From a virus, in the IMG/VR virus record IMGVR_UViG_3300023176_002313, positions 1-22,996 of that record: DNA of 22,996 nucleotides. One strand, written 5' to 3'. The notes beneath the pieces were generated by a model, which was not told the origin of the DNA, searched no databases, and worked only from the letters and a program-made list of their open reading frames with translations. Below, piece by piece: positions 1 to 18,190 of the stretch (position 1 is the first letter of the stretch; each line of letters starts with the position of its first letter). The position numbers were made by a program, and so were the translations under genes.

Positions 1-1176
1 GGCAGCAGTAGAACTACCCAATGCCTCAGTGATCACATCAAAATATCCTACGCCAACTTCTCTTTGATGCTTTGCGCTTGTGTATCCAAACTGCTCGGCG
101 GCGAACTCCTCCTCCTGTAACCAAGAATATGCCAGCATGCCATGCTTCTTGTACGAACGGGCAAACTGAAACACTGCGTTATTTGTAGCATGGAAACCAG
201 CGAGAGTAATAAACTGAAACTTGAATCCCATCTTGCCCAACTCCCACTGGAAGTCAGCAAGTTCTTGATCTCCTGGGATACTCTTGCGCCAGTTAAACGA
301 AGGCGAACAGTTGTACGCCAGCATAGCATCAGGGACAGCACCCTTCACCGCATCAGCAAACTGCTTCGCTTCCTTCAGGCAAGGTTTTGAGGTTTCGCAC
401 CAAACTAGATCAGCATACTCTGCGTATCGTTGACCACGCTCGCAACCGAACTCTAGTCCCCGTCCTTCTTGGATGGAGTAGAATCCTTCTGGTGAACGAT
501 CTCCGGTGAGGAATTTACGGTCAAGATCGTCGACATCGGTCGCAAGGAACTTGGCAGATTCTGCGTCCGTTCTAGCAATAACAACAGTGTCGGTCCCAGC
601 AACATCACTAGCAAGACGAGCAGCATTAAGATTCCGGATAGCTTGTGAAGTCGGTATGAGAACCTTTCCTCCGAGGTGTCCGCACTTTTTTTCTGAGGAG
701 ACTTGGTCTTCAAAGTGGACGGCTGCTGCGCCTGCCTCAATAAGATTTCGTGCCAGTTCGTAAGCATTTAAAACTCCTCCGAATCCTGCTTCCGCATCCG
801 CGATGATAGGAGCGAACGGAAACCCTTCGCCACCTTCCGATACAGATATCTGATCCTGTCGCCTAAAACTATTATTGATATTCCTAACAACGTCAGGAAC
901 AGAGTTAACAGGGTATAGACTCTGGTCAGGATAAGTTTCCAGCGCACTATTAGACGACGCTGCGACTTGCCATCCCGATAAGTATATTGCATGGATACCA
1001 GCCTTGACATGTTGTACTGCCTGTTGACCGTTGTATGCTCCGAACGTATTTATATATGGGTGCGTAGCGAACAACTTACGAAGGTTGTTCGCACCCATCT
1101 TTGCCAGTGTGTGCTCTACTTGCACTGACCCTTTTAGTTTGTCCACTACTTCTGGGTCGTAGTCACGCTTCTTCAT
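1..1176 (-). CDS. aceA: Isocitrate lyase (AceA/ICL), 3' end cut by window edge
   Basis: Isocitrate lyase splits isocitrate into succinate and glyoxylate, the first step of the glyoxylate shunt. The frame is open from the ATG at 1176 to the window edge, giving 392 codons with no stop. The catalytic signature KKCGHLGGK is present with Cys at about residue 165. Other family blocks are SGWQVAA, YPDQSLYP, ADAEAGFGG, IARTDAE, NCSPSFNW, ITLAGFHA and KHQREVG, all in the expected order. Bacterial enzymes are about 430 aa, so only the last ~15-20 residues should be missing. The N-terminus begins at the segment that follows the usual W..N.RW..R.Y stretch, so it looks about 25 residues short. An in-frame TAA four codons upstream rules out a longer start. 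AAGGA 5-8 nt before the ATG supports this start. The start overlaps the end of the PsiE-like gene by 14 nt. I am very sure of the family; in a phage it would act as an auxiliary metabolic gene. Confidence 0.96.
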   Translation of the reverse strand, partial: MKKRDYDPEVVDKLKGSVQVEHTLAKMGANNLRKLFATHPYINTFGAYNGQQAVQHVKAGIHAIYLSGWQVAASSNSALETYPDQSLYPVNSVPDVVRNINNSFRRQDQISVSEGGEGFPFAPIIADAEAGFGGVLNAYELARNLIEAGAAAVHFEDQVSSEKKCGHLGGKVLIPTSQAIRNLNAARLASDVAGTDTVVIARTDAESAKFLATDVDDLDRKFLTGDRSPEGFYSIQEGRGLEFGCERGQRYAEYADLVWCETSKPCLKEAKQFADAVKGAVPDAMLAYNCSPSFNWRKSIPGDQELADFQWELGKMGFKFQFITLAGFHATNNAVFQFARSYKKHGMLAYSWLQEEEFAAEQFGYTSAKHQREVGVGYFDVITEALGSSTAA

Positions 1177-1588
1177 TACTATTCCTTATTGATAATTTGT
1201 CTAAACTAATCTTATCTTTCGCCGACATAATATATGCCGAGATTGCCAAAATCAAAATACCACCACTCTCAAAAATTATATCCAAGGGTTCGTTGCCCTT
1301 GGTTTGTAGTATGATCATACGAGTCAATGCTGTCATCGCAATAATCAACGGGAGTGTAACTGGTATCCTATGATCTTTGTAGAAAGCACCAACCATACCC
1401 AATATCTCTGCGTAGATAAACAGGAGGAAAAGATCGGCGAGCGCCATCTTACCCTGTCCTGCAAACATAGCGACGATATCGTATCCAGCTGCCCAGACCG
1501 TGCCTGCTACAATGAAAAGGAGAAGTGCCTTCTCAATATGCATGATGCCTTCGCCGACACCATGTTTGATTTTGTTTTTGCTAATCAT
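1163..1588 (-). CDS. psiE: PsiE-like phosphate-starvation-inducible membrane protein
   Basis: 141-aa integral membrane protein matching the PsiE family pattern. It has about four hydrophobic helices and the characteristic stretch FIYAEILGMVGAFYKDHRIP followed by LIIAMTALTRMIIL. PsiE is known as phosphate-starvation inducible in enterobacteria; its biochemical role is unknown. The frame stays open to 1672, but the ATG at 1588 lies 1 nt after the stop of the MazG-like gene and is preferred. Another ATG at 1543, just before the first helix and with GAAGG upstream, is a possible alternative. It overlaps the isocitrate lyase start by 14 nt, so the two are probably translationally coupled. Family call is by recognition of the motif, not by a search. 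Confidence 0.8.
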   Translation of the reverse strand: MISKNKIKHGVGEGIMHIEKALLLFIVAGTVWAAGYDIVAMFAGQGKMALADLFLLFIYAEILGMVGAFYKDHRIPVTLPLIIAMTALTRMIILQTKGNEPLDIIFESGGILILAISAYIMSAKDKISLDKLSIRNSNEEA

Positions 1589-1589
1589 A

Positions 1590-1958
1590 TTAATACTTTG
1601 TCTTGCCAGTCGCTGTTCGAGAAGGGGCACGAGACTCATTTCCAATGGTCGTTGGCTTACCTTCACTGTCACTTTCTTTTACGAAAATACCATCAACCAT
1701 TTTACCTTTGCGGTCTTTAATATCATTCCATGCATGTAACAAGCACTCTTCCAAATTAGTGCCGTTACGTTCCGCAATATTTATAAGCACAACCATGCAG
1801 TCTCCAATATCATCTTTGATATCTTTACCCTTACATACGTTGTCGCTCAACTCACCAACTTCTTGAATCAGTTTACATACCTGATCTTTGTCAGTAGCAC
1901 CATTGATCAAGTTACGATCGTGATGCCAGCGTGTTACTAAATGAATTAACTCTTTCAT
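1590..1958 (-). CDS. MazG-like nucleoside triphosphate pyrophosphohydrolase
   Basis: 122-aa protein with the all-alpha NTP pyrophosphatase (MazG) pattern. A helix carrying EVGEL is followed about 15 residues later by DDIGD and a VVLINIAE helix; these acidic residues bind the Mg ions in the family. Such enzymes hydrolyse (d)NTPs to monophosphates and pyrophosphate. Phage versions have been proposed to clean nucleotide pools or to affect ppGpp signalling; neither can be decided here. The start at 1958 is chosen because GAGGAA lies upstream and its ATG overlaps the preceding stop as ATGA; the frame is open to 1976. The C-terminal tail after about residue 85 is polar and probably disordered. Confidence 0.8.
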   Translation of the reverse strand: MKELIHLVTRWHHDRNLINGATDKDQVCKLIQEVGELSDNVCKGKDIKDDIGDCMVVLINIAERNGTNLEECLLHAWNDIKDRKGKMVDGIFVKESDSEGKPTTIGNESRAPSRTATGKTKY

Positions 1959-2743
1959 AATGTTTCCTCGTACCATTCAAAATCTACGAATGTTTTATCT
2001 TTCCATGTTTCCGGATGCTCGTTACGATAGTAAGAGATCTCTTTTAATAATTTGTCAAACTTCATGTAAGAAGGGGGATGACAAATAACGTCCTTATGGT
2101 ATTCAGTTATTTCTACATCTTGTATTACAATTTCCCTTCCTGGTCTCATTGCACCTGCTATAATACCGTCAAAGTGTTTTCTCTCTAGAAAAGTTTGTAA
2201 CCTTTCAACGAACACCCTTGACCCTCCATGCATGTTACGAAAGTCTTCATCATACCCACGCGTCTTCAAGAAAGTTTCTTTGCGAATCCCATACGTGTTG
2301 TATTCGACTGGATCTATGTAGTCCATATAGTTCTTGCCAACATAAAGCCAAGCAACACTATCGCAAGGATATGGTCTTGCCCAAACGCCAAGGAACTGAT
2401 CCTCTGTCAACTCAGGAATATGTTTGTAAACTGCTTTGACGCTCTCCTCACTGATTTCCATATCAACATCCATGAGAAACACCCAATCATGCGTTGCTTG
2501 TTGTACACCAAGATTACGGCACCCATGACCATTGAATCCATAGTTTATAGGCACACGAAGTATCCTGATGTTCATATCGTCATCCGCCCACCTCTCCACA
2601 ACTTCTTTGGCAAGTTCTTTTGTGGATCCATCATCGACTATGATAACTTCGTCCCAGAGTTTTGTACTCCCCATAGTCAATAATCTAGAGAGTTGTTCCT
2701 CGTCCTCAAAGTATGGGACTACAAGACTAACCTTCGTATGCAT
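1955..2743 (-). CDS. GT2-family glycosyltransferase
   Basis: 262-aa GT-A fold glycosyltransferase of family 2. The N-terminal VSLVVPYFED strand is followed by VIIVDDGST (nucleotide-sugar binding Asp pair) and by VFLMDVDMEIS (the DxD metal-binding motif). A block YGFNGHGCRNLG is shared with the two GT2 proteins at 12622-14225, so the three are paralogues. Acceptor and sugar are unknown; candidates are host surface glycans, phage structural proteins or DNA. The start at 2743 (HTKVSLVV follows) is favoured; an ATG at 2749 and an upstream in-frame start at 2779 inside the primase-like gene are alternatives. It overlaps that gene by about 17 nt and ends in an ATGA overlap with the MazG-like gene. 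Confidence 0.85.
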   Translation of the reverse strand: MHTKVSLVVPYFEDEEQLSRLLTMGSTKLWDEVIIVDDGSTKELAKEVVERWADDDMNIRILRVPINYGFNGHGCRNLGVQQATHDWVFLMDVDMEISEESVKAVYKHIPELTEDQFLGVWARPYPCDSVAWLYVGKNYMDYIDPVEYNTYGIRKETFLKTRGYDEDFRNMHGGSRVFVERLQTFLERKHFDGIIAGAMRPGREIVIQDVEITEYHKDVICHPPSYMKFDKLLKEISYYRNEHPETWKDKTFVDFEWYEETL

Positions 2744-3826: not shown

Positions 3827-4407
3827 AAAACTAGTAGACCCATAACATTAATATTGTCATCTGACACATATGGAAACATGCGTACCATATTCCATCTAGA
3901 GTGATTAACTGCACTGAGAACTTGCCATTGGTCGATATTATCTATTAACAACTGCCTTACACCAAAGTGACTGCAACAATTCAAATCAAGGGCAGTGTGT
4001 TCATATGAATGCTGCCCGTCAATGAGGGCAAAGTCAAAAGGACCATAAGGTTCTAAGTCATCATATGCATCAATAGTTCCTTTGGGTATCCAAGTAAACC
4101 TATCACCAAACACATCCTTCATAGCATTCGCTTGTTGCTCTCTTGTATCTGCTAGCAACTTGGCACCATCCAATGTGTGTTCAAAACCAGGACTAATGGA
4201 AACAACGTTGGCATCAGTAAATTCATCTAACATCCAAGTGGTTGAGTGCCCAAGGTGAAATCCTATCTCCAAAACATTTTTAGGACTATACATCCTCTGT
4301 ATTTTATTCCAAACATACAAACCGTCAGGGATATATCCCCAACTATTTTCTAAGTGTACGAGATGATCACGCGAAGAAGTCTTCAAGGGTAACTGTCTCC
4401 TCTTCAT
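3823..4407 (-). CDS. Class I SAM-dependent methyltransferase-like protein
   Basis: 194-aa protein with a Rossmann methyltransferase core of the Methyltransf_24 type. Motif I is VLEIGFHLGHSTTW (about residues 45-58), and the later PFDFALIDGQHSYEHTALDL block carries the motif around the catalytic edge. The protein ends at NINVMGLLVL. The substrate is unknown. The ATG at 4407 lies inside the 3' end of the polymerase gene (41-nt overlap) with a poor ribosome site. A TTG at 4386 with AGGAG about 10 nt upstream is an alternative start. The gene ends in an ATGA overlap with the 58-aa ORF. Confidence 0.75.
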   Translation of the reverse strand: MKRRQLPLKTSSRDHLVHLENSWGYIPDGLYVWNKIQRMYSPKNVLEIGFHLGHSTTWMLDEFTDANVVSISPGFEHTLDGAKLLADTREQQANAMKDVFGDRFTWIPKGTIDAYDDLEPYGPFDFALIDGQHSYEHTALDLNCCSHFGVRQLLIDNIDQWQVLSAVNHSRWNMVRMFPYVSDDNINVMGLLVL

Positions 4408-6886
4408 TCCAACCGATTGCCTCTAGCACTGGACGCACCACTGCCAAGAATGCTTTTTCAAACTGTTTCTCATAGTCAATGTATCTGTGCAAATTAAACT
4501 CCTCGGGAAGGAAGTCATAAAATGCAATGATATTTTCCCTGATAGGATTCTTTTCATCAAGATACAAGAACTTAATCTTTTCACCGTCTTTGATAATATT
4601 ATACTTACGATCGAGTCCTTTGTCAAGAAGTATTTTGTTGTAGAGCAAAGATCCTCGCACGTGTATCGGTGTGCCCTGCTTGTATATGTTCTTGGCGTCA
4701 CGCCACTTGCCCACGTCAGATACTCCGCGAGGGAAGGCAATCTCATGAGGATCAAGTGTACGGAAGTGCGACCTGAATATCTGTATTGCCTGTTGAGTCT
4801 GCGCTTCGGTGCCAGTTATCATCACCTTGAACAAACCTTTCAATGCATCACGACAGGAGGCAGGGGTAGATGACTTGACTGCCTCAATACCCATGATCTT
4901 CAGTTTAGGTTTGGCATACTGCACACCCTCGCTGTTGTGTACGTTGAGGATGTATCGCTTCTTCGCTGTCCAGATACCTGCGTCGGCGATCACCTCGCGA
5001 CCCATCACCATCTTGTTCTCATATGCATTCATATACTCGGCGAGGTCACTGTACGATCTTTCGAACAGCGGTTCAAACTTCTCCTCGCCAATCTGCGACA
5101 ACACCTGTACAGTCTGGTCAGTATCCGTCAGTCCCATCTTCTCGACGAGAGGACCAAAGTTTACATACACGGAATCAGTATCAATCGCGATCACATAGTC
5201 AACACCTTTCGTTTCTAGGATATTGTTCATGTACTCGTTGACTGCTTTCTCTGCCCAACGGATAGACAACTGACCTGACATCGTAATCGCTTCTGCCATA
5301 CGAATATCGTAGTAACGGAACCAGCGATTACCCAACCCACCATAAAGTGAGTTCATCATAATTTTAATCGCCATCTGTTGCGTATCAAGTTTCGTTACAG
5401 TTTTACCAGCGTTCTTATCACCTGCCTCAACCTTTGACTGTAACCCGAGCATATCTCTCTTGATCTGTTTACGTTCAGCATACAGACCATCAATCACTGC
5501 TGGCAAAACGCCACGGAAGTCTTTCGAGAAGTGTACACCATTGGCGGCGATACAGTCATGAGGAGACTTGCTCTCGGGTCGCTCGCGAGCGAGGCAGTTA
5601 TCAACTGTCACGCCAGAAGTGCGTGTACTCACGATAGTCTCAGGCGACATATTATACTGCATAATCAAGTGAGGATACAGACTGTTCAGGTCAAACGAGA
5701 TAACCCATGAGTGACGACCGATATGCGGTGCCTTCACATATCCACCACCGAAGTCAGTTTTCATATTCTCTTTCTTGGGCGGCACGACGATCTTGCGTTT
5801 ACACAGCTCGCGATAGATGTAAGTATCCCACAACTGCGTAGTCCCGAATGCTTCCTGATAGTTACACCCACCCTTGTACGCGATAGTCATGGCAAGGTCA
5901 ATCAAACCCATCTTCTCGTCGATACGTTCAACCAACTGTACGTCTTTGATGTTGTAGTCGATAAACTTCTGATAATCTTCTTTGTACAGCGTGTACAGAT
6001 TACCGTGCTCCTCGTAGGATAGTTTCTTCTCGCCGAGTACAACGTTCGCGATATGATCCAGTTTGTACGACTCTTGTACGCCATATGAGTACACGCCAAA
6101 CTTTTGAAACAGATCCCAGTAATCTAGTTGCTCAATACCAACCAACTCATAGACCTGTTGCTTTCTGCCCTTGAGACTAATCATCTTCTCGCGGACGATA
6201 CCCCATGGTGACATCTTCTTGAAGGCATCACCACCGAGCAGATTGTTGACACGATTAATCAGATATGGAATATCAAACAGTCTGACGTTCCAACCTGTTA
6301 CGACATCGGGGCAGGTATCCTTGCCACTCCAGAAACCAAGGAACTTGAGGATGAGATCAAGTTCGCCATCACACTTAATAAACTTGATATGCTCCGGAGC
6401 AACGTCGATCTGAGTTTTCTCGGGGTCATACTTATCTTCAAGTGCGAATATGAAAAAGTCAGGGCGACCATGATACTTGAGGCAGATAGATTGTACTTCC
6501 TTCTCTGCTCGCTCAGGTTCAGGGAATCCATCATCGGACTCAACCTCGATGTCGATATTAGCGACGAGGATCTGGGCAGGGTCATAGGTTATTTCGTTGG
6601 GATAATGTTTCTGTATGTACTGCGCAGCGAAGTTGTTGTTACCATGAACCTCAACATTATCTACGCCATCGTACTGTTTCCAAAACTCAGTCGCTTCGGA
6701 CAACGTCTCAAACTGCACCTCCGACACAGTCCGACCATCCAGAGTTTTCCAGATAGAGTCGGGTTTATTTGCGGGGAGATACATAACAGGTTTGAAGGTG
6801 TCGCGATACTGCTTGCGTTCACCGTTCTCGTATCCTCGGTAACAAATACTGTTACCAACACGAGAGATGTTAGTATAAAACTTCAT
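4367..6886 (-). CDS. 43: Family B DNA polymerase, T4 gp43-like
   Basis: 839-aa replicative DNA polymerase with 3'-5' exonuclease. Exonuclease motifs: NIDIEVE (D112, E114, the same numbers as T4), GWNVRLFDIPYL (D205) and YNIKDVQLVE (Y311, D315). Polymerase motifs: motif A SFDLNSLYP (D399), motif B KIMMNSLYGGLGN and motif C IDTDSVYV (D569, D571), then AKKRY at 642-645. The C-terminus TLEDFFA resembles the clamp-binding tail of T4/RB69 polymerase. All catalytic residues are intact; length is slightly below T4's 898. The start ATG at 6886 has GGAG 8 nt upstream and lies 18 nt from a predicted +1. In T4, gene 43 directly follows regA; here two extra genes intervene. Confidence 0.98.
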   Translation of the reverse strand: MKFYTNISRVGNSICYRGYENGERKQYRDTFKPVMYLPANKPDSIWKTLDGRTVSEVQFETLSEATEFWKQYDGVDNVEVHGNNNFAAQYIQKHYPNEITYDPAQILVANIDIEVESDDGFPEPERAEKEVQSICLKYHGRPDFFIFALEDKYDPEKTQIDVAPEHIKFIKCDGELDLILKFLGFWSGKDTCPDVVTGWNVRLFDIPYLINRVNNLLGGDAFKKMSPWGIVREKMISLKGRKQQVYELVGIEQLDYWDLFQKFGVYSYGVQESYKLDHIANVVLGEKKLSYEEHGNLYTLYKEDYQKFIDYNIKDVQLVERIDEKMGLIDLAMTIAYKGGCNYQEAFGTTQLWDTYIYRELCKRKIVVPPKKENMKTDFGGGYVKAPHIGRHSWVISFDLNSLYPHLIMQYNMSPETIVSTRTSGVTVDNCLARERPESKSPHDCIAANGVHFSKDFRGVLPAVIDGLYAERKQIKRDMLGLQSKVEAGDKNAGKTVTKLDTQQMAIKIMMNSLYGGLGNRWFRYYDIRMAEAITMSGQLSIRWAEKAVNEYMNNILETKGVDYVIAIDTDSVYVNFGPLVEKMGLTDTDQTVQVLSQIGEEKFEPLFERSYSDLAEYMNAYENKMVMGREVIADAGIWTAKKRYILNVHNSEGVQYAKPKLKIMGIEAVKSSTPASCRDALKGLFKVMITGTEAQTQQAIQIFRSHFRTLDPHEIAFPRGVSDVGKWRDAKNIYKQGTPIHVRGSLLYNKILLDKGLDRKYNIIKDGEKIKFLYLDEKNPIRENIIAFYDFLPEEFNLHRYIDYEKQFEKAFLAVVRPVLEAIGWNEEETVTLEDFFA

Positions 6887-8932: not shown

Positions 8933-9340
8933 TTAGTGCTTGACCCCTATATTATATTTGGGGCAAAGTTCCCATTCACTTTTCTCTCTAAACGAAACAA
9001 CTTTAATCTGGCGCAAAGGTGCTTTATCTCGCGCCATAGAATTGTCGATTATATTAACTAAACCCCAATCGCTCAAAAGAGTTGCGATTGTGTTTCTTCT
9101 GGCAATGTCAGCTTCTTCAAGAGTTGCTTTTTTGCCATCAAGTAAAAATAGTTCTTTAAAATGAACAATAAAATATCTGCCTTGCTTGTGCAAAATGTGG
9201 CAAGATTGAAACAGTTTCTTTTCTTTTCGAGAGGCAATGCCTATCCTTGTCAAGGTCTCTCGTACTTTTAGAAAATCGTCTGGTTCGTTCAGCGTGACTT
9301 CCAACATGTCCGCTGGCGTCCATGATACTACCGATTCCAT
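8933..9340 (-). CDS. regA: RegA translational repressor of early mRNAs
   Basis: 135-aa homologue of T4 RegA (122 aa), which binds start regions of early mRNAs, including those of replication genes, and blocks ribosome binding. Recognisable stretches: LEVTLNEPDDFLKVRETLTR, IGIASRKEKKLFQSCHIL, YFIVHFKELFLLDGK, LLSDWGLVNII and a C-terminal SFREKSEWELCPKYNIG. T4's protein starts at the residue matching the internal Met at 9307. The upstream ATG at 9340 has a better placed GGGA, so 11 extra N-terminal residues are possible. It lies directly after gp62, as in T4. The 57-nt gap before it is AT-rich with no convincing promoter. Confidence 0.95.
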   Translation of the reverse strand: MESVVSWTPADMLEVTLNEPDDFLKVRETLTRIGIASRKEKKLFQSCHILHKQGRYFIVHFKELFLLDGKKATLEEADIARRNTIATLLSDWGLVNIIDNSMARDKAPLRQIKVVSFREKSEWELCPKYNIGVKH

Positions 9341-9783: not shown

Positions 9784-11433
9784 TCAAAATAAACAAATTT
9801 GTGGATCATCCTCTATAGTCAATCCGTCCATTCTAAAAGTGCTCCAAGAGAAAGGAGCAGATTGTGCAGCAATCTCATGCCCTAGTTCATGTAACTGACT
9901 CATCAACCAACGAGTTCGGAGTATAGTTTCAGCGTTGTTGGTAGGTGGCGGTTGGTTTTCAATTTCTTCCAAACAGAAGCAACCACCTGTTGTTCCCAAC
10001 TTCACTGATTGCCCTTCATATTCTCCTGTTCCCTCACCGAAGGTACAACTGACATTATAATCTGAGAACCTGCCTGTCGGCAAGTCAGCATAAGTCATGA
10101 TCGTACCGAACCCACCATAGACACCTTCGTAATCAGGATTATCTGCTTGCGGATTATATCCTTCTAAGTGGTGACCATATGAATATTCAAAGAGACCATA
10201 ATTGCCTCTAACGTCATTATATTCGTGTTGAGCACCTAATAGATGTCCAATCTCATGAGCGAATGTCTCGTGTGCTCGTTCGTAATATCTTGTCGTCTCA
10301 TATTCTTGAAACACTGTATTATTAAAACACTGTATAATACCTCTCGACTTGTCGATACCACGTGTTGCATCAAGATTAGCAACACCACATGCGATTGGTT
10401 CCTCGGGCAGTTTTTTAAATAAGAATGCCAAGTCAGCTTCTGCTTCTCGTTGCCAATCACTAAGACCTTGAAACTCATATCGCTCATTAAAGAATGCATC
10501 ATACTGACGGTACAAATCACCCTCAGCAACATCTACCATTACAATCCCTGCTCGGCGAACAAGAGCGTATGTGCCTGATGCCATATACATATGATTCGAT
10601 TCATAGATTTGTTTATCGACAAACTCCTCCACTGTCATACCATCGCGATCTTCTTCGGTCAATGCAGTATCAACGACAAACAACATGTCAATGATCGCCC
10701 TGCCAGTATGTTCTGACCTTGGTTGGTATGGAAAACTGACTCCAGTTTTTTGTTTGATGCCATCGCAAGTCAGGTAATCATATCGAGAATCATTATTGTC
10801 AGTCGGATCTGTAGGGCAGTCATCAGGTTTTTCCATCTGTACAAAGCATGATTGATCGAGGTGTACAGTGCGCTCAGTATATGAACCACCTTCACCGTCA
10901 GCATAATCTTGTAAGCGATCTTCGGGCAACAGGTGGTTGATACTCTCAAACAATGGATCATATTCTTCTGATGTCAGTGTACCTGCACAATACGAATCAC
11001 CCAACAGAGTGCCTGCTTCGGGTGGTGGTTCATAACCACATTCTTCCGAATCAGTTTCGGTTACTTCTGAATAAGTCCCGCCTTCTCCGTCAGCATAGTC
11101 TTGTACTACATCATACTCGCCGAGATTTTGTATTGTGTTGAGTAGGTCTATAAACTGTTGTTCAGCAGCATTAGCGCAATACGGTTTGCCTAACGCAACA
11201 CCAAATGCAGGAGGTGGTTCATAACCACAATCCTCTGAGTTTTCAGTTTCTTCTGTTGTCGAACCACCATTGCCGTCAGCAATGGTTTCGATGAGTGTCG
11301 TGCCTTCGCACGCTGTCTCCAGAACAGTTCCTGCTGCTGGAGGTGGTGTTACCACCACTTCTTCTTGCTCTTGAGTACCACTTCCCCCACCGCATGCGGT
11401 CAACGCAAAAAATATGGGGATAAGTTTTTTCAT
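9784..11433 (-). CDS. Secreted lipoprotein metalloprotease (metzincin, M12-like)
   Basis: 549-aa predicted lipoprotein. The N-terminus MKKLIPIFFALTACGGGSG is a lipoprotein signal with lipobox LTAC (Cys14). Gly at +2 and the following polar linker fit export to the outer membrane of a Gram-negative host. Residues about 30-196 hold three Cys-containing repeats. The catalytic motif HEIGHLLGAQH (H393, E394, H397, H403) is the metzincin zinc site HExxHxxGxxH, and GTIMTYAD downstream matches the Met-turn. The C-terminal region has further Cys residues. The start is set at 11433, where the ATG overlaps the upstream stop as TAATG; the frame is open to 11475. The substrate could be a host envelope protein, a competing phage receptor or a bacteriocin. 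Its location between clamp-loader genes is odd. Confidence 0.85.
   Translation of the reverse strand: MKKLIPIFFALTACGGGSGTQEQEEVVVTPPPAAGTVLETACEGTTLIETIADGNGGSTTEETENSEDCGYEPPPAFGVALGKPYCANAAEQQFIDLLNTIQNLGEYDVVQDYADGEGGTYSEVTETDSEECGYEPPPEAGTLLGDSYCAGTLTSEEYDPLFESINHLLPEDRLQDYADGEGGSYTERTVHLDQSCFVQMEKPDDCPTDPTDNNDSRYDYLTCDGIKQKTGVSFPYQPRSEHTGRAIIDMLFVVDTALTEEDRDGMTVEEFVDKQIYESNHMYMASGTYALVRRAGIVMVDVAEGDLYRQYDAFFNERYEFQGLSDWQREAEADLAFLFKKLPEEPIACGVANLDATRGIDKSRGIIQCFNNTVFQEYETTRYYERAHETFAHEIGHLLGAQHEYNDVRGNYGLFEYSYGHHLEGYNPQADNPDYEGVYGGFGTIMTYADLPTGRFSDYNVSCTFGEGTGEYEGQSVKLGTTGGCFCLEEIENQPPPTNNAETILRTRWLMSQLHELGHEIAAQSAPFSWSTFRMDGLTIEDDPQICLF
10846..11346 (-). repeat. Three tandem protein repeats in the lipoprotein protease
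   Basis: Residues about 30-71, 73-134 and 136-196 repeat the plan PPPxAGTxLG..C, then a variable helix, then DYADGEGGxYxE and a final Cys. Repeat 1 is shorter and more divergent (IADGNGGSTTEE); repeats 2 and 3 share QDYADGEGG. Each unit has two Cys, suggesting one disulfide per unit in the periplasm or outside the cell. Confidence 0.75.
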
Positions 11434-11669
11434 TAGTGTACAGTATCCTCTAAGTATGGTTGTGAGAGGATCCACTGCAAGTCAGGAAGCATGCGATATG
11501 TAAAATGCGTACCGTACATCTCTTCAATCTTCTCCAACTCTACTTGTGTAAAGTCTCTCATCAACCTATCAACAACCAAATCTTGGACTTCATGGGCGAG
11601 AACATCAACTTTATCGCGGATCTTCTCGATGTCGCTATCAGTCCAATCTATATCAATTAAACTCGACAT
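11433..11669 (-). CDS. Hypothetical protein, 78 aa
   Basis: Small acidic, mostly helical protein starting MSSLIDIDWTDSDIEKIRDK and ending PYLEDTVH. It contains two hydrophobic heptad-like helices, VDVLAHEVQDLVVDRLM and VELEKIEEMYG. Its start overlaps the end of gp44 by 17 nt, and its stop overlaps the lipoprotein start as TAATG. No family is recognised; it is not gp62, which is found at 9400-9774. Coupling to gp44 suggests co-expression with the clamp loader. Confidence 0.75.
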   Translation of the reverse strand: MSSLIDIDWTDSDIEKIRDKVDVLAHEVQDLVVDRLMRDFTQVELEKIEEMYGTHFTYRMLPDLQWILSQPYLEDTVH

Positions 11670-12591
11670 TTGCCATCATCTCCGTTAGACAAGCAACCAT
11701 ATTTAGTTCTGCGTCAGCAACAAATGCTGCCTTGTATTGATAGTCCGCAAGGATTAGAACTAACTGAGGAATGCTGTTTGGTGCGACATACTCTGACATT
11801 GCGTCATAGATGCCACGGAAGATAGCAGCAGATTCAACATCCATGTTGTTCGCTACCCATGTTCGCATATTCTTGAAGTCTTTGTTCTTGATATGAGAAA
11901 ACAGGTCAGCGATACTTGCGCTGGTAGACTTACTCAGCACATCTAACTGAAGTTCGCCACCACGTGAGTGACGTTGAAGTTCGTTAAGCACTCTACGCCA
12001 GTCGGGGGCGTGACGCATGATCAACTCAGCAACAAGAGTCGGGTTTGATACTGACACACCTTCATCTTCTAGGATAGTCATGGTGCGTGTCATAAATGAC
12101 TCGCACAGATTCACCATGTCTTTTTTGCTGGTGTTGAACTCAATCACACCACAACGAGAGTGTAGTGGTTCGATGATCTTGTTCTTGAAATTACAAGTCA
12201 GGATGAATCGACAGTTAGCACTGAACTCCTCAATGAAACCACGGAGGGCAGGTTGAGTCGACTGTGCGTTCAGATAATCTGCCTCGTCAAGGATGACAAC
12301 CTTGTAACCACCCTGAAGTGAGATGCTAGAAGCAAACTGTTTGATCTTGCCACGGAGAGTGTCAATGTTACCACTCTCCGATGCGTTGATCAAGATGTAG
12401 TCAAGGGAAAGTTCGTTACAGATCGCTCGGGCGACAGTGGTCTTGCCAAGACCAGCGGTGCCAGTAAACAGCATGTTGGGAACCTCACCAGTGGCGACGA
12501 TCTCCTTAAACTGCTGCTTCAAGTGATCCGGCAGGATGCACTCCTCGACTGTGCGTGGTCTGTATTTTTCTACCCAAAGTGTATCAATCAT
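11653..12591 (-). CDS. 44: Clamp loader ATPase subunit, gp44-like
   Basis: 312-aa AAA+ ATPase of the clamp-loader family. WVEKYRPRTVEECILP opens the protein; Walker A is GTAGLGKTTVA, Walker B is VVILDEADYLNA, sensor 1 is FILTCNFKNK and the SRC arginine finger is HSRCGVIEF. It would form the gp44/62 complex that opens and loads gp45 using ATP. Two adjacent ATG codons exist (12594 and 12591); GGAG is spaced 4 and 7 nt from them, so 12591 is slightly preferred. A near-consensus promoter lies upstream. Confidence 0.97.
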   Translation of the reverse strand: MIDTLWVEKYRPRTVEECILPDHLKQQFKEIVATGEVPNMLFTGTAGLGKTTVARAICNELSLDYILINASESGNIDTLRGKIKQFASSISLQGGYKVVILDEADYLNAQSTQPALRGFIEEFSANCRFILTCNFKNKIIEPLHSRCGVIEFNTSKKDMVNLCESFMTRTMTILEDEGVSVSNPTLVAELIMRHAPDWRRVLNELQRHSRGGELQLDVLSKSTSASIADLFSHIKNKDFKNMRTWVANNMDVESAAIFRGIYDAMSEYVAPNSIPQLVLILADYQYKAAFVADAELNMVACLTEMMANVEFN

Positions 12592-12615
12592 CATATATCT
12601 CCATCATCAACATAT

Positions 12616-12644
12616 ATTATACTAAATTTCACGTCGCCAGTCAA
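12616..12644 (-). promoter_or_regulatory. Strong sigma70-like promoter of gene 44
   Basis: -35 TTGACT (12639-12644), 17-nt spacer and -10 TATAAT (12616-12621), near perfect for host sigma70. It overlaps the 3' end of the upstream glycosyltransferase gene. The predicted +1 at about 12609 leaves a 15-18 nt leader with GGAG. Confidence 0.7.
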
Positions 12645-13350
12645 ACGTGATTTTCGGTATATTTTTCCACGACTTACGGTCGGCATTCCGAGCATGAATC
12701 ATGTCCAGAATACCCTGTATGTGCTTCTGGTCTCTCTGCACGACCGTGTAGTCGTCTGGATATTGAGTCCCCGTACAGGTATCATCGACAACTATTTGTC
12801 TCCCTATGCGATTTGAGGGGAATCTGGTGGACATCAACAAGGGGTCGTAGAGAGTATCCAGTCGCTCACGAAAGATCTTATCGCCCATATGATACCCACG
12901 AAGTTCCTCGTCGTATCCACCTGCCTCAAAGAATTGAGCACGGCGACATGCAAATATATTTCCTGGGTCGCCGCCATACAAATTGCAAAGCACATACTGC
13001 GACTCGTCACAGGATTCTATCTCGCGGAACAGTGCTTCACAAAATTCTTCAGTCAACTCAAGATCAACATCCATGAACAGCATCCACTCAGTCTTGCATA
13101 TGGATGCTGCTAAATTTCTGGCACCATGAGCATTGAACCCATAGTCCAACGCCACTCGATACAGAAACATTTTCTTTCTGTTACAACAGCATTCTTCTAT
13201 GTGTGCTTTGACGATAGGTTTCGCTGGATATTTTGGAGAAGCATCATCTACGACGATAACCTTATCAAAATATTTAAAGGTGCAATCGTTGTATAATATG
13301 GACTCTAACCTATGAGGATCTTCATAATATGGTATACACAGAGATATCAA
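12622..13350 (-). CDS. GT2-family glycosyltransferase
   Basis: 242-aa family 2 glycosyltransferase. ISLCIPYYEDPHRLES starts the GT-A fold; KVIVVDDASPKYPAK and WMLFMDVDLELTEEFCEALF carry the nucleotide-sugar and DxD motifs. YGFNAHGARNLA matches its upstream neighbour almost exactly, and both are similar in length and order, so they look like a tandem duplication that has diverged. FEAGGYDEELRGYHMGDKIF is the usual acceptor-side block. Its ATG overlaps the upstream stop as ATGA. Sugar and acceptor are unknown. Confidence 0.88.
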   Translation of the reverse strand: MISLCIPYYEDPHRLESILYNDCTFKYFDKVIVVDDASPKYPAKPIVKAHIEECCCNRKKMFLYRVALDYGFNAHGARNLAASICKTEWMLFMDVDLELTEEFCEALFREIESCDESQYVLCNLYGGDPGNIFACRRAQFFEAGGYDEELRGYHMGDKIFRERLDTLYDPLLMSTRFPSNRIGRQIVVDDTCTGTQYPDDYTVVQRDQKHIQGILDMIHARNADRKSWKNIPKITFDWRREI

Positions 13351-14225
13351 GTTGTATTGTCTCTTTTTAGCAATTGTTTCAGCATAAATCCAAAAGGTGT
13401 CTCGTCGATATAGACTTGTTGCCTCAGTTGGTGCGCAGACTCACCAAGATCTAACTCAAGTTGGTGGCATTCAAGATCGACTTCATACCACATAAACTTT
13501 GATTGGTGCTTTTCAATTTCATGCCAACGAGTTCTATCTTCGTTTCTTTCATACATGAATTTTTCCCAAACAATCCTGTACTTATCGGGAGGGTGAGTCA
13601 TACTGTTGTCTTTGTTATAGACTACTTTCCTACAGTCATCTCTATGCTTGTAATGATGCATCGGTCTATTCATGATAAGGTATGGTGGCGGCATCATGAT
13701 AGGTCTATACATTGCATCCAATCTGTATCGGAATATTCTGTCACCATAATGAATACCCATACATTCTTCATCGTATCCTTTGACACGCCAGAACTGCCAT
13801 TCTCTTATGGAAAAGTGGTTTAGAGTATCTTTGTCTGGTGTACGGTCAATGTTATGTATTAGGAAACTGTCTCGAGGACAGGACTCTATCGAACGGTGTA
13901 GTTGTTCACAGAACCCTTCGGTGATCTCATTATCAATATCAAGTAGGGAGCACCACTCATTACGCACAAATCTCATACCAAGGTTACGAGCACCGTGCGC
14001 ATTAAAACCGTAGTCTACTGGTATGCGGAACAAACGTAAACGATCACGATACTCTGGGTTGTCAAGTATGAAGTCTACCAGAGTTTCTTTGGCGGGATGA
14101 TCATATGATCCATCGTCTATTATGATAATCTCATCAAAATACTTGAAGTTGTTTTCATTCCATATGAAATCAAACAGACGACGAGCATCCTCATAATAAG
14201 GGCAGACTAATGATATTGGAGTCAT
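13347..14225 (-). CDS. GT2-family glycosyltransferase (paralogue)
   Basis: 292-aa family 2 glycosyltransferase. Motifs: ISLVCPYYEDARRLFD, EIIIIDDGSYDHPAK, YGFNAHGARNLGMRF, CSLLDIDNEITEGFCEQLH (DxD as DID) and VKGYDEECMGIHYGDRIFRY. A C-terminal extension of about 50 residues beyond its paralogue holds KFMWYEVDLECHQLELDLG. The start at 14225 (MTPISLV) has GAGG 6 nt upstream; a GTG at 14255 is in frame but less likely. It overlaps the next glycosyltransferase by 4 nt, so the two are co-translated. Confidence 0.87.
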   Translation of the reverse strand: MTPISLVCPYYEDARRLFDFIWNENNFKYFDEIIIIDDGSYDHPAKETLVDFILDNPEYRDRLRLFRIPVDYGFNAHGARNLGMRFVRNEWCSLLDIDNEITEGFCEQLHRSIESCPRDSFLIHNIDRTPDKDTLNHFSIREWQFWRVKGYDEECMGIHYGDRIFRYRLDAMYRPIMMPPPYLIMNRPMHHYKHRDDCRKVVYNKDNSMTHPPDKYRIVWEKFMYERNEDRTRWHEIEKHQSKFMWYEVDLECHQLELDLGESAHQLRQQVYIDETPFGFMLKQLLKRDNTT

Positions 14226-14290
14226 ACAGTTCCTCAAAGAGAGCAGTTTTGCCACTTACTCAGGTGACGGTGCGTACCGACCAGAGCGAG

Positions 14291-16589: not shown

Positions 16590-17132
16590 TCATTCACCCA
16601 CAAGGTCAGCGTATACAACATCGGGGCAGGTGACTTCATACGGATCAAATTCGTAATCGTCACGTTTCCCAGCTTCTGACCACCAGTGAGTAATGAACCC
16701 ATCAACTACCATGGCAGCAAATCTCCAAGATCGCTTACCCATGCCGTAGTTATCCTTGTACACGGTCATATTCAAACCGCCAGTGAACCTTGCAGAACCA
16801 TCAGGAATCATTTTTACTTTTGTGATTCCTAGATCTGCTGCCCACTTATTCATAACAAAGGCATCGTTAACAGAAATACAATAGATTTCGTCAACTCCTG
16901 CTGCTATAAATTGATCATACATTGCTTCATAACCAGGAAGTTGCAACTCCGTACAAGTAGGAGTGAATGCTCCTGGCAGAGAAAATAACAGCACTTTTTT
17001 ATTGTTAAATGCTTGATTTGTTGTGAGATCTTCCCAGCGATATGGATTATCACCGCCAATAGATTCGTCACGAACTCTCATCTTGAATGTTACAGGAGGG
17101 ACACGCATTCCCCTCATTTCGTGTGCTTCCAT
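16590..17132 (-). CDS. Peroxiredoxin, Prx5-type
   Basis: 180-aa thiol peroxidase that reduces H2O2 and organic peroxides. LLFSLPGAFTPTCTELQLPG carries the peroxidatic Cys60 in the P..T..C motif. EIYCISVNDAFVMNKWA and KMIPDGSARFTGGLNM are typical Prx5 stretches, and GKRSWRFAAMVVDG supplies the conserved Arg. A C-terminal Cys in EVTCPDVVYADL may act in resolution. The ATG at 17132 overlaps the upstream stop as TAATG; a later ATG at 17117 with GGAAG upstream is an alternative. It lies in the gp45 operon, so it should be expressed with replication genes and could protect the host against oxidative stress during infection. Confidence 0.93.
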   Translation of the reverse strand: MEAHEMRGMRVPPVTFKMRVRDESIGGDNPYRWEDLTTNQAFNNKKVLLFSLPGAFTPTCTELQLPGYEAMYDQFIAAGVDEIYCISVNDAFVMNKWAADLGITKVKMIPDGSARFTGGLNMTVYKDNYGMGKRSWRFAAMVVDGFITHWWSEAGKRDDYEFDPYEVTCPDVVYADLVGE

Positions 17133-17373: not shown

Positions 17374-18048
17374 TTATGCTCCGTAGGTTGATGATTTTTC
17401 CAGAGCGATGTAGTAGACAACATCGGTACTGGTGTTCTTAAACTCTGAAATAAGTTTAGAAGATACTGACACTTCATAGTCCCCGTCGATCAACTTTAGG
17501 TTAGCGACGTTCATTACAAACATGAAGTCCTCAGTCTCATATGAGCCAGGAACTGTAATGTCAAACGCACTAGAAGTTGCATTATTAGGATCTACAACAG
17601 TCAATTTAATACTGCCATCATTGGCGGTAATGGTCATCTTCTCGTGACCCAACGCACCAGCGGCACGTTTGACTTTATTTAGTGTTGCAAGATCAAGAGT
17701 AAACTTGACTTCTGACTCAACCATAGTAATATCTTTCTGAGGAGTTGTCAGAATAGACTCGTCGCTGTAAAAATACTTGACGTTGGATCGACCAGAAGAA
17801 TCAGACACAGTGACAAATTCTTCTGCGAATGATAAATCAGGCGCATCGACAAGACCGAGGACAGCAAGGAACTCATCTAGATTGAAAATACCAAATGTTG
17901 AAGTAAACTCTTGATCTAGATTAGCGATCGCCATTATGTTCTTCGCTTCGGCAATAGTCTTGATCTTTTTACCTTCAGATAAAATAATATTTTGTTGAAT
18001 GGAGGCAAAGTTCTTAAGAACTGCCATGGTGTTTTCATTGAGTTGCAT
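17374..18048 (-). CDS. 45: Sliding clamp, gp45-like
   Basis: 224-aa DNA polymerase processivity clamp (T4 gp45 is 228 aa), forming a trimeric ring that also activates late transcription in T4. The N-terminus MQLNENTMAVLKNFASIQQN matches the T4 pattern MKLSKDTTALLKNFATI. Later blocks SEVKFTLDLATLNKVKRAAG and KLIDGDYEVSVSSKLISEF also fit. Of two ATG codons, the second (18048) gives the family N-terminus and a 6-nt spacing from AGGAG. The gene overlaps a 51-aa ORF upstream. It is the first member of the conserved 45-44-62-regA-43 series. Confidence 0.95.
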   Translation of the reverse strand: MQLNENTMAVLKNFASIQQNIILSEGKKIKTIAEAKNIMAIANLDQEFTSTFGIFNLDEFLAVLGLVDAPDLSFAEEFVTVSDSSGRSNVKYFYSDESILTTPQKDITMVESEVKFTLDLATLNKVKRAAGALGHEKMTITANDGSIKLTVVDPNNATSSAFDITVPGSYETEDFMFVMNVANLKLIDGDYEVSVSSKLISEFKNTSTDVVYYIALEKSSTYGA

Positions 18049-18190
18049 CATTATCTCCTAGTTCCTCAATCCTGTATAAAATATCTTCAACAGCAGTAAC
18101 GTATCCGCTGATGAAGTCAGGGTTCTCATCATAGTACCCTTTCTTTGCTTCCTTCATAATATTATGCAGGAAAGGCATCAACTCATCCAT
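18035..18190 (-). CDS. Small acidic hypothetical protein, 51 aa
   Basis: MDELMPFLHNIMKEAKKGYY opens the protein, followed by DENPDFISGYVTAVEDILYR and an acidic tail. The start overlaps the methyltransferase stop as TAATG and the stop overlaps the clamp gene by 14 nt, so the ORF exactly fills the space between two genes. Its last codons include the clamp's AGGAG ribosome site. Mostly helical; family not recognised. Confidence 0.72.
   Translation of the reverse strand: MDELMPFLHNIMKEAKKGYYDENPDFISGYVTAVEDILYRIEELGDNDATQ

Follow-up and report, generated by a model that had tools for sequence, protein, structure and literature searches.

Isocitrate lyase of a T4-like marine phage and its recurrent association with alternative oxidase and other respiratory genes

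Introduction

Cyanophages are the textbook viruses that sustain the energy metabolism of their hosts. This work deals with an isocitrate lyase (ICL) gene placed at one end of a viral DNA of 22,996 nucleotides (IMG/VR record IMGVR_UViG_3300023176_002313, positions 1 to 22,996, called here the window), and with the respiratory genes found near ICL in related phages. A preliminary description of the window had considered that a phage ICL could be unreported, but this is not so: aceA and aceB reads were found in Pacific Ocean viromes (Hurwitz 2013, PMC4053976), and an aceBA operon was described in the T4-like environmental genome TARA_ERS478052_N000008 (Nishimura 2017, PMC5332604). In those cases as in the window, ICL occurs in a marine T4-like phage or virome. 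However, they pair ICL with a phage malate synthase, whereas malate synthase is missing from the window and from the relatives searched, and ICL has an alternative oxidase (AOX) as partner.

Other described systems share part of these features. In cyanophages, a gene cassette joins the quinol oxidase PTOX to zwf and gnd (PMC3037559). This PTOX/petE/zwf/gnd cassette is like the lineage of the window in that a T4-like phage brings together a quinol oxidase of the di-iron type and enzymes of central carbon metabolism, but the oxidase belongs to another group (tblastn with phage AOX found no cyanophage PTOX), the carbon enzyme is another one, and the annotation of the related phage C48C1 contains no photosynthesis gene. 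The cellular aceBA genes of the streamlined marine gammaproteobacteria AG-365-L08, MED641 and MED656 encode ICLs of the same clade (71–76% identity) but, unlike in the phage loci, ICL adjoins malate synthase and there is no AOX in those genomes. The viral 5-aminolevulinate synthase valaS (PMC11480375) is, like the synthase found here in some relatives, a heme-precursor enzyme of aquatic phages; it is not known to accompany terminal oxidase genes, and neither "alternative oxidase" nor "isocitrate" occurs in the main text of that paper. Finally, sdhB and coxA reads, suspected to be viral, were reported in uncontaminated viromes (Roux 2013, PMC3877843). The same respiratory genes are found here on phage contigs, and sdhB also in a complete phage genome, which gives a genome-level footing to the 2013 read-level hints of viral genes of the tricarboxylic acid (TCA) cycle and respiration. 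What appears to be new is thus the gene context of ICL, with AOX and respiratory genes, and not phage aceA itself: in the open-access literature searched no description was found of ICL with AOX in phages, nor of the combined respiratory set.

Identity of the window gene as isocitrate lyase

The aceA-type ICL gene of the window (1..1176, minus strand) begins with an ATG at position 1176 and runs to base 1, giving 392 of 403 amino acids in an open reading frame (ORF) that is open at the contig edge. It is open-ended because the contig stops there; the complete ICL of 403 residues, with the C-terminus ...STEAEQFC, is present in the related contig L003 (IMGVR_UViG_3300023116_004902; related loci are designated here by L numbers). 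The leftward extension advised in the preliminary description, aimed at the C-terminus, could thus be made through L003, and only 11 residues lie beyond the edge.

The assignment was supported by Pfam, NCBIfam, phmmer and the catalytic residues. The Pfam ICL model matched the window ORF with 9e-82. The NCBIfam equivalog NF011645 (isocitrate lyase), with a cut-off of 562 bits, scored 604.7 bits with the window ORF and 621.7 bits with the 403-residue L003 copy, and the phmmer comparison with the solved ICL 6lrp gave an E value of 7e-155 (519 bits) over residues 4–387 (384 residues). The possibility that the ORF encoded methylisocitrate lyase or another member of the PEP-mutase superfamily was ruled out, as the prpB model reached only 105 bits versus a cut-off of 354 bits. 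The catalytic positions are S67, G68, W69, D84, D127, E129, H154, E156, D157, K163, K164, C165, H167, R202, W259, E261, N289, S291, S293, T324 and H329. Across 83 phage-type ICLs, 23 positions with a role in catalysis or in substrate or metal binding, among them the KKCGH motif, were invariant, except that the first four are missing from one fragment. The dN/dS ratios between the window ICL and its relatives of other lineages were 0.03–0.09, indicative of strong purifying selection, the values for the more distant pairs being approximate because dS is near saturation. The full catalytic signature recognized in the preliminary description is therefore confirmed, on the minus strand, and from these sequence criteria it is nearly certain that the gene encodes an isocitrate lyase (EC 4.1.3.1).

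Occurrence of phage-type isocitrate lyase in T4-like genomes

A pattern scan of IMG/VR yielded 165 contigs with ICL relatives, the best 80 of which are 73–100% identical. Such scans detect close relatives only, the study was confined to the 80 best loci of each scan, and most records are fragments. The complete T4-like phage C48C1 (OQ984149.1, 156 kb, placed in Kyanoviridae) encodes ICL as CDS0055, annotated as "hypothetical protein", and the T4 major capsid protein Gp23 was found in all six ICL-bearing records of at least 137 kb that were tested. ICLs present in Salmonella, E. coli and Acinetobacter "phage" records were discarded, as they were judged to be bacterial chromosomal DNA filed as phage; they are less than 60% identical, and mostly carry bacterial isocitrate lyase names or are unannotated.

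A junction of unrelated DNAs at about positions 1–1700 had been contemplated in the preliminary description, but L003, L006 and L007 are contiguous across the ICL region, with 99.7%, 94% and 95% nucleotide identity to the window, respectively; for L003 the identity is 99.66% over 6,451 bp at this end of the window. In the window itself, the T4-like setting with a nearby gp43 is borne out by the DNA polymerase gp43 (4367..6886, minus strand; phrog_262, E=0, 1014 bits), which is 52% identical to that of C48C1 and 46–47% to those of cyanophages, the gp44-like large subunit of the clamp loader (11653..12594, minus strand; phrog_168, 9.7e-114), the sliding clamp gp45 (17374..18051, minus strand; phrog_223, 1.7e-66) and a RegA-type translational regulator, a T4-like marker (8933..9340, minus strand; Pfam PF01818, 5.5e-45). 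Flanked by phage genes in a genuine phage genome and under purifying selection, ICL can be regarded as a phage auxiliary metabolic gene, as had been supposed.

Malate synthase is absent from the window, as noted before, and it was found in none of 20 related ICL-bearing records, including phage genomes of 156–164 kb. Hence, no complete viral glyoxylate shunt (aceBA) was found in these 20 records. A close relative of the gammaproteobacterial malate synthase was not found in IMG/VR either, by a scan that sees close relatives only.

Alternative oxidase next to isocitrate lyase

The gene that follows ICL past window position 1 encodes an AOX of 188 amino acids (L003:6484-7050, minus strand relative to the window; Pfam PF01786, 1.2e-68). 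Its start lies 4 nucleotides inside the ICL stop codon (4-nucleotide overlap). This context was missed in the preliminary description because the contig stops at ICL. By established biochemistry, AOX enzymes oxidise quinol with oxygen and pump no protons. The di-iron ligands E33, E73, H76, E124, E175 and H178 are kept in all the 107 viral copies. AOX lies at most eight genes from ICL in 22 viral loci, and both genes are carried by record L180. Of 20 ICL-bearing records searched over their full length, 10 contain AOX at some position. At least 233 IMG/VR contigs have an AOX, versus 9 of 369 gammaproteobacterial genomes. When 50,697 phage records were searched by tblastn with a phage AOX query, C48C1 was the sole match.

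A side observation concerns L371:8691-10583, where an AOX fragment is followed by an HNH-endonuclease-like ORF on the opposite strand and then by a longer AOX copy, which is a possible case of homing-endonuclease insertion.

Succinate dehydrogenase, cytochrome oxidase and heme genes in relatives

In C48C1, a gene for the iron-sulfur subunit of succinate dehydrogenase, SdhB, with its cluster cysteines, is located two genes upstream of ICL (L083:13937-14644, CDS0053), and AOX is found at 26.3 kb (CDS0028); ICL, SdhB and AOX are all annotated as hypothetical proteins. Viral SdhBs score 350–365 bits with model NF004616 (cut-off 228), and 10 of the 11 cluster cysteines are kept in 38 of 38 copies, the remaining one in 37. 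The end of ICL, a cytochrome c, a membrane protein of the family named here f6, SdhB and AOX are all inside 3.3 kb in L347. SdhB and AOX overlap by 8 nucleotides in L223, L225, L367 and L368, and an iron-sulfur assembly protein gene stands just upstream of the pair in L223. SdhA (PF00890) was found in none of 15 records searched, i.e. no complete viral complex II was found among them; therefore, the phage would supply the replaceable iron-sulfur subunit and not the whole complex.

Cytochrome c oxidase genes are also represented. The contig formed by L251 and its continuation (L251/L339/L344) carries 5-aminolevulinate synthase (ALAS), AOX, coxB, coxA, cox11 and SdhB, and these stand among phage genes for exonuclease, nucleotide kinase and a ClpP-like protease. 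A relative of ALAS is near AOX in L194, L195, L198 and L251. Gp23 was not found in the coxA contigs L251–L254, which are therefore not counted here as T4-like. Two of them, L251 and L253, are short pieces of sequence that carry phage genes; L252 has 194 kb and encodes a gp43-like polymerase. The order ICL-AOX-f6-coxB-coxA occurs in L084 (JAAERX010000037.1), filed in the bacterial metagenome-assembled genome Nau_16 and, with an ICL 83% identical, taken at first as bacterial. It is most likely misbinned phage DNA: its ICL clusters with that of viral L015 (98/99) among the viral sequences, and its coxA shows 90–92% likeness to the phage-contig copies versus 70% to the coxA of Nau_16 itself.

The f6 family consists of two-helix membrane proteins of about 111 amino acids. 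It includes L005:11209-11547, L223:4300-4662 and some 50 further ORFs, and its members recur next to ICL, AOX or SdhB. No Pfam match was found for it. Its AlphaFold model has a pLDDT of 78, and the only hit of the PDB fold search, to a membrane subunit of complex II (E=7.3), was not significant and was not used. It can be considered a candidate partner of quinol oxidation. Two other ORFs of coxA-bearing contigs may be mentioned. The first, L343:15934-17370 (minus strand), on the phage contig to which L253 also belongs, encodes a di-haem cytochrome c peroxidase (CCP/MauG) whose N-terminus resembles that of a lipoprotein, and a heme-oxygenase-like ORF, recognized by eye, lies at L252:11692-12243, about 4 kb from coxA in the 194-kb viral contig.

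Origin of the gene and host

In the ICL tree that had been proposed in the preliminary description, the viral ICLs and those of one family of streamlined marine gammaproteobacteria form one clade with 100/100 support, while no other bacterial ICL exceeds about 61% identity with the window protein. In that family, aceA is directly behind aceB. The cellular group nests inside the viral clade (93/93, 89/74), but viral monophyly was not rejected by the approximately unbiased (AU) test (p=0.138), so that the gene may have passed in either direction. Should it have passed from phage to cell, these bacteria would show in nature that an ICL of the phage type works. The host is probably a marine gammaproteobacterium. 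The best gammaproteobacterial matches of AOX (69%) and coxA (78%) are only suggestive as host clues, gammaproteobacteria being the only class compared.

Proposed role and alternative explanations

The recurrence of ICL with AOX, SdhB, cytochrome c and cytochrome c oxidase genes argues for a role in the respiration of an aerobic host. We consider it rather probable that ICL is part of a respiratory and central-carbon gene set borne by T4-like marine phages of aerobic heterotrophs. The activity and expression of ICL, and its joint function with AOX and SdhB, are predicted here from sequences. Phage ICL would cleave isocitrate to succinate and glyoxylate, bypassing the two CO2-releasing dehydrogenases. 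Succinate would be oxidised by complex II, made of host SdhA/C/D with, in some relatives, fresh phage SdhB, and phage AOX would hand the quinol electrons directly to oxygen (succinate → quinol → AOX → O2). Respiration so driven would be fast and weakly coupled, such that carbon and electron flow could persist while host complexes I, III or IV were limiting, degraded or inhibited in the infection. Glyoxylate would be taken by the host malate synthase, and the carbon spared could be used for nucleotide and amino-acid synthesis. Concerning the preliminary idea that TCA diversion saves carbon or alters 2-oxoglutarate, carbon saving through host malate synthase is compatible with this scheme; however, succinate-driven respiration is favoured over a simple role of that kind because AOX adjoins ICL and SdhB, cytochrome and heme genes are added in relatives. 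Some data weigh against the respiratory role: ICL is within 6 kb in only 7 of 79 AOX loci, and about half of the ICL-bearing records are without AOX and most without SdhB (mostly fragments). As many ICL records are without AOX or SdhB, ICL can be useful alone.

The main rival, compatible with part of the respiratory role, is that phage ICL simply adds to or replaces host ICL in the glyoxylate shunt and, with host malate synthase, feeds oxaloacetate, aspartate and pyrimidines, AOX being an incidental auxiliary gene. The aceBA operon of the other T4-like genome (PMC5332604) and the cellular relatives, in which an ICL of this type comes immediately after aceB, agree with it, and so does the fact that aceA and aceB are the most raised host TCA-cycle genes in the virocell of Pseudoalteromonas infected by phage HP1 (PMC7082346). 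Nevertheless, we think it less likely, as malate synthase is missing from the 20 ICL phage records searched, with no close relative of the gammaproteobacterial type in IMG/VR, and it does not account for the recurrent placement of ICL next to AOX, SdhB and oxidase genes. A much less probable role would be in metabolite signalling or interference, whereby ICL drains isocitrate and lowers 2-oxoglutarate or NADPH, altering nitrogen or redox signalling or starving functions of the host or of rivals. ICL does compete with isocitrate dehydrogenase, and the window also holds a peroxiredoxin and a PhyH protein, but no PII or nitrogen-regulation genes were seen beside ICL, and its neighbours recur around quinol and oxygen chemistry. 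As to an artefact, be it a phage contig fused to an ICL of bacterial origin or a gene carried without function, the window does end within the ICL gene and cellular contamination of viromes is documented (PMC3877843), yet the independent contiguous contigs, the complete phage C48C1, the 165 viral contigs and the strong purifying selection have already refuted it, leaving it a negligible probability.

Returning to the respiratory role, a broader and more tentative proposal can be made: T4-like phages of marine aerobic heterotrophs might be equipped with a respiratory bypass built of modules (ICL, SdhB, cytochrome c, AOX, cytochrome c oxidase I/II with Cox11, and ALAS for heme), a counterpart of cyanophage photosynthesis genes, that rewires oxygen consumption by the infected cell, and one streamlined gammaproteobacterial lineage might owe them its aceA. 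If heterotroph phages carry such a matching set, viruses could control a large part of the respiration and CO2 release of the ocean, the electrons exiting by way of an oxidase that conserves little energy. The ICL-AOX and SdhB-AOX gene pairs make the respiratory role directly testable in E. coli.

Other features of the window

Upstream of ICL, and overlapping its start by 14 nucleotides, there is a gene for a PsiE-family membrane protein (1163..1588, minus strand; Pfam PF06146, 2.2e-20), probably coupled translationally to ICL; the PsiE gene holds an equivalent place in eight ICL loci. The PsiE family is phosphate-starvation-inducible; a member is also present in C48C1 (L083:26753-27121), and a similar ORF in the coxA contig L253. 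Next to the PsiE gene of the window lies that of a MazG-like pyrophosphatase (1590..1976, minus strand; phrog_1992, 9.2e-44; phrog_715, 2.8e-37). The peroxiredoxin belongs to the Redoxin family (16590..17132, minus strand; Pfam PF08534, 1.7e-18), and a relative of it sits between AOX and ICL in loci L059, L062–L064 and L066. The PhyH protein encoded in the window is dioxygenase-like. The gene at 9784-11475 (minus strand) encodes a putative secreted lipoprotein whose metzincin domain is reprolysin-like (HExxHxxGxxH), which is unusual for a T4-like phage. Three related family-2-like glycosyltransferases (1955-2779, 12622-13350 and 13347-14255, all on the minus strand), which form one family by ORF clustering, probably modify the host surface or DNA.
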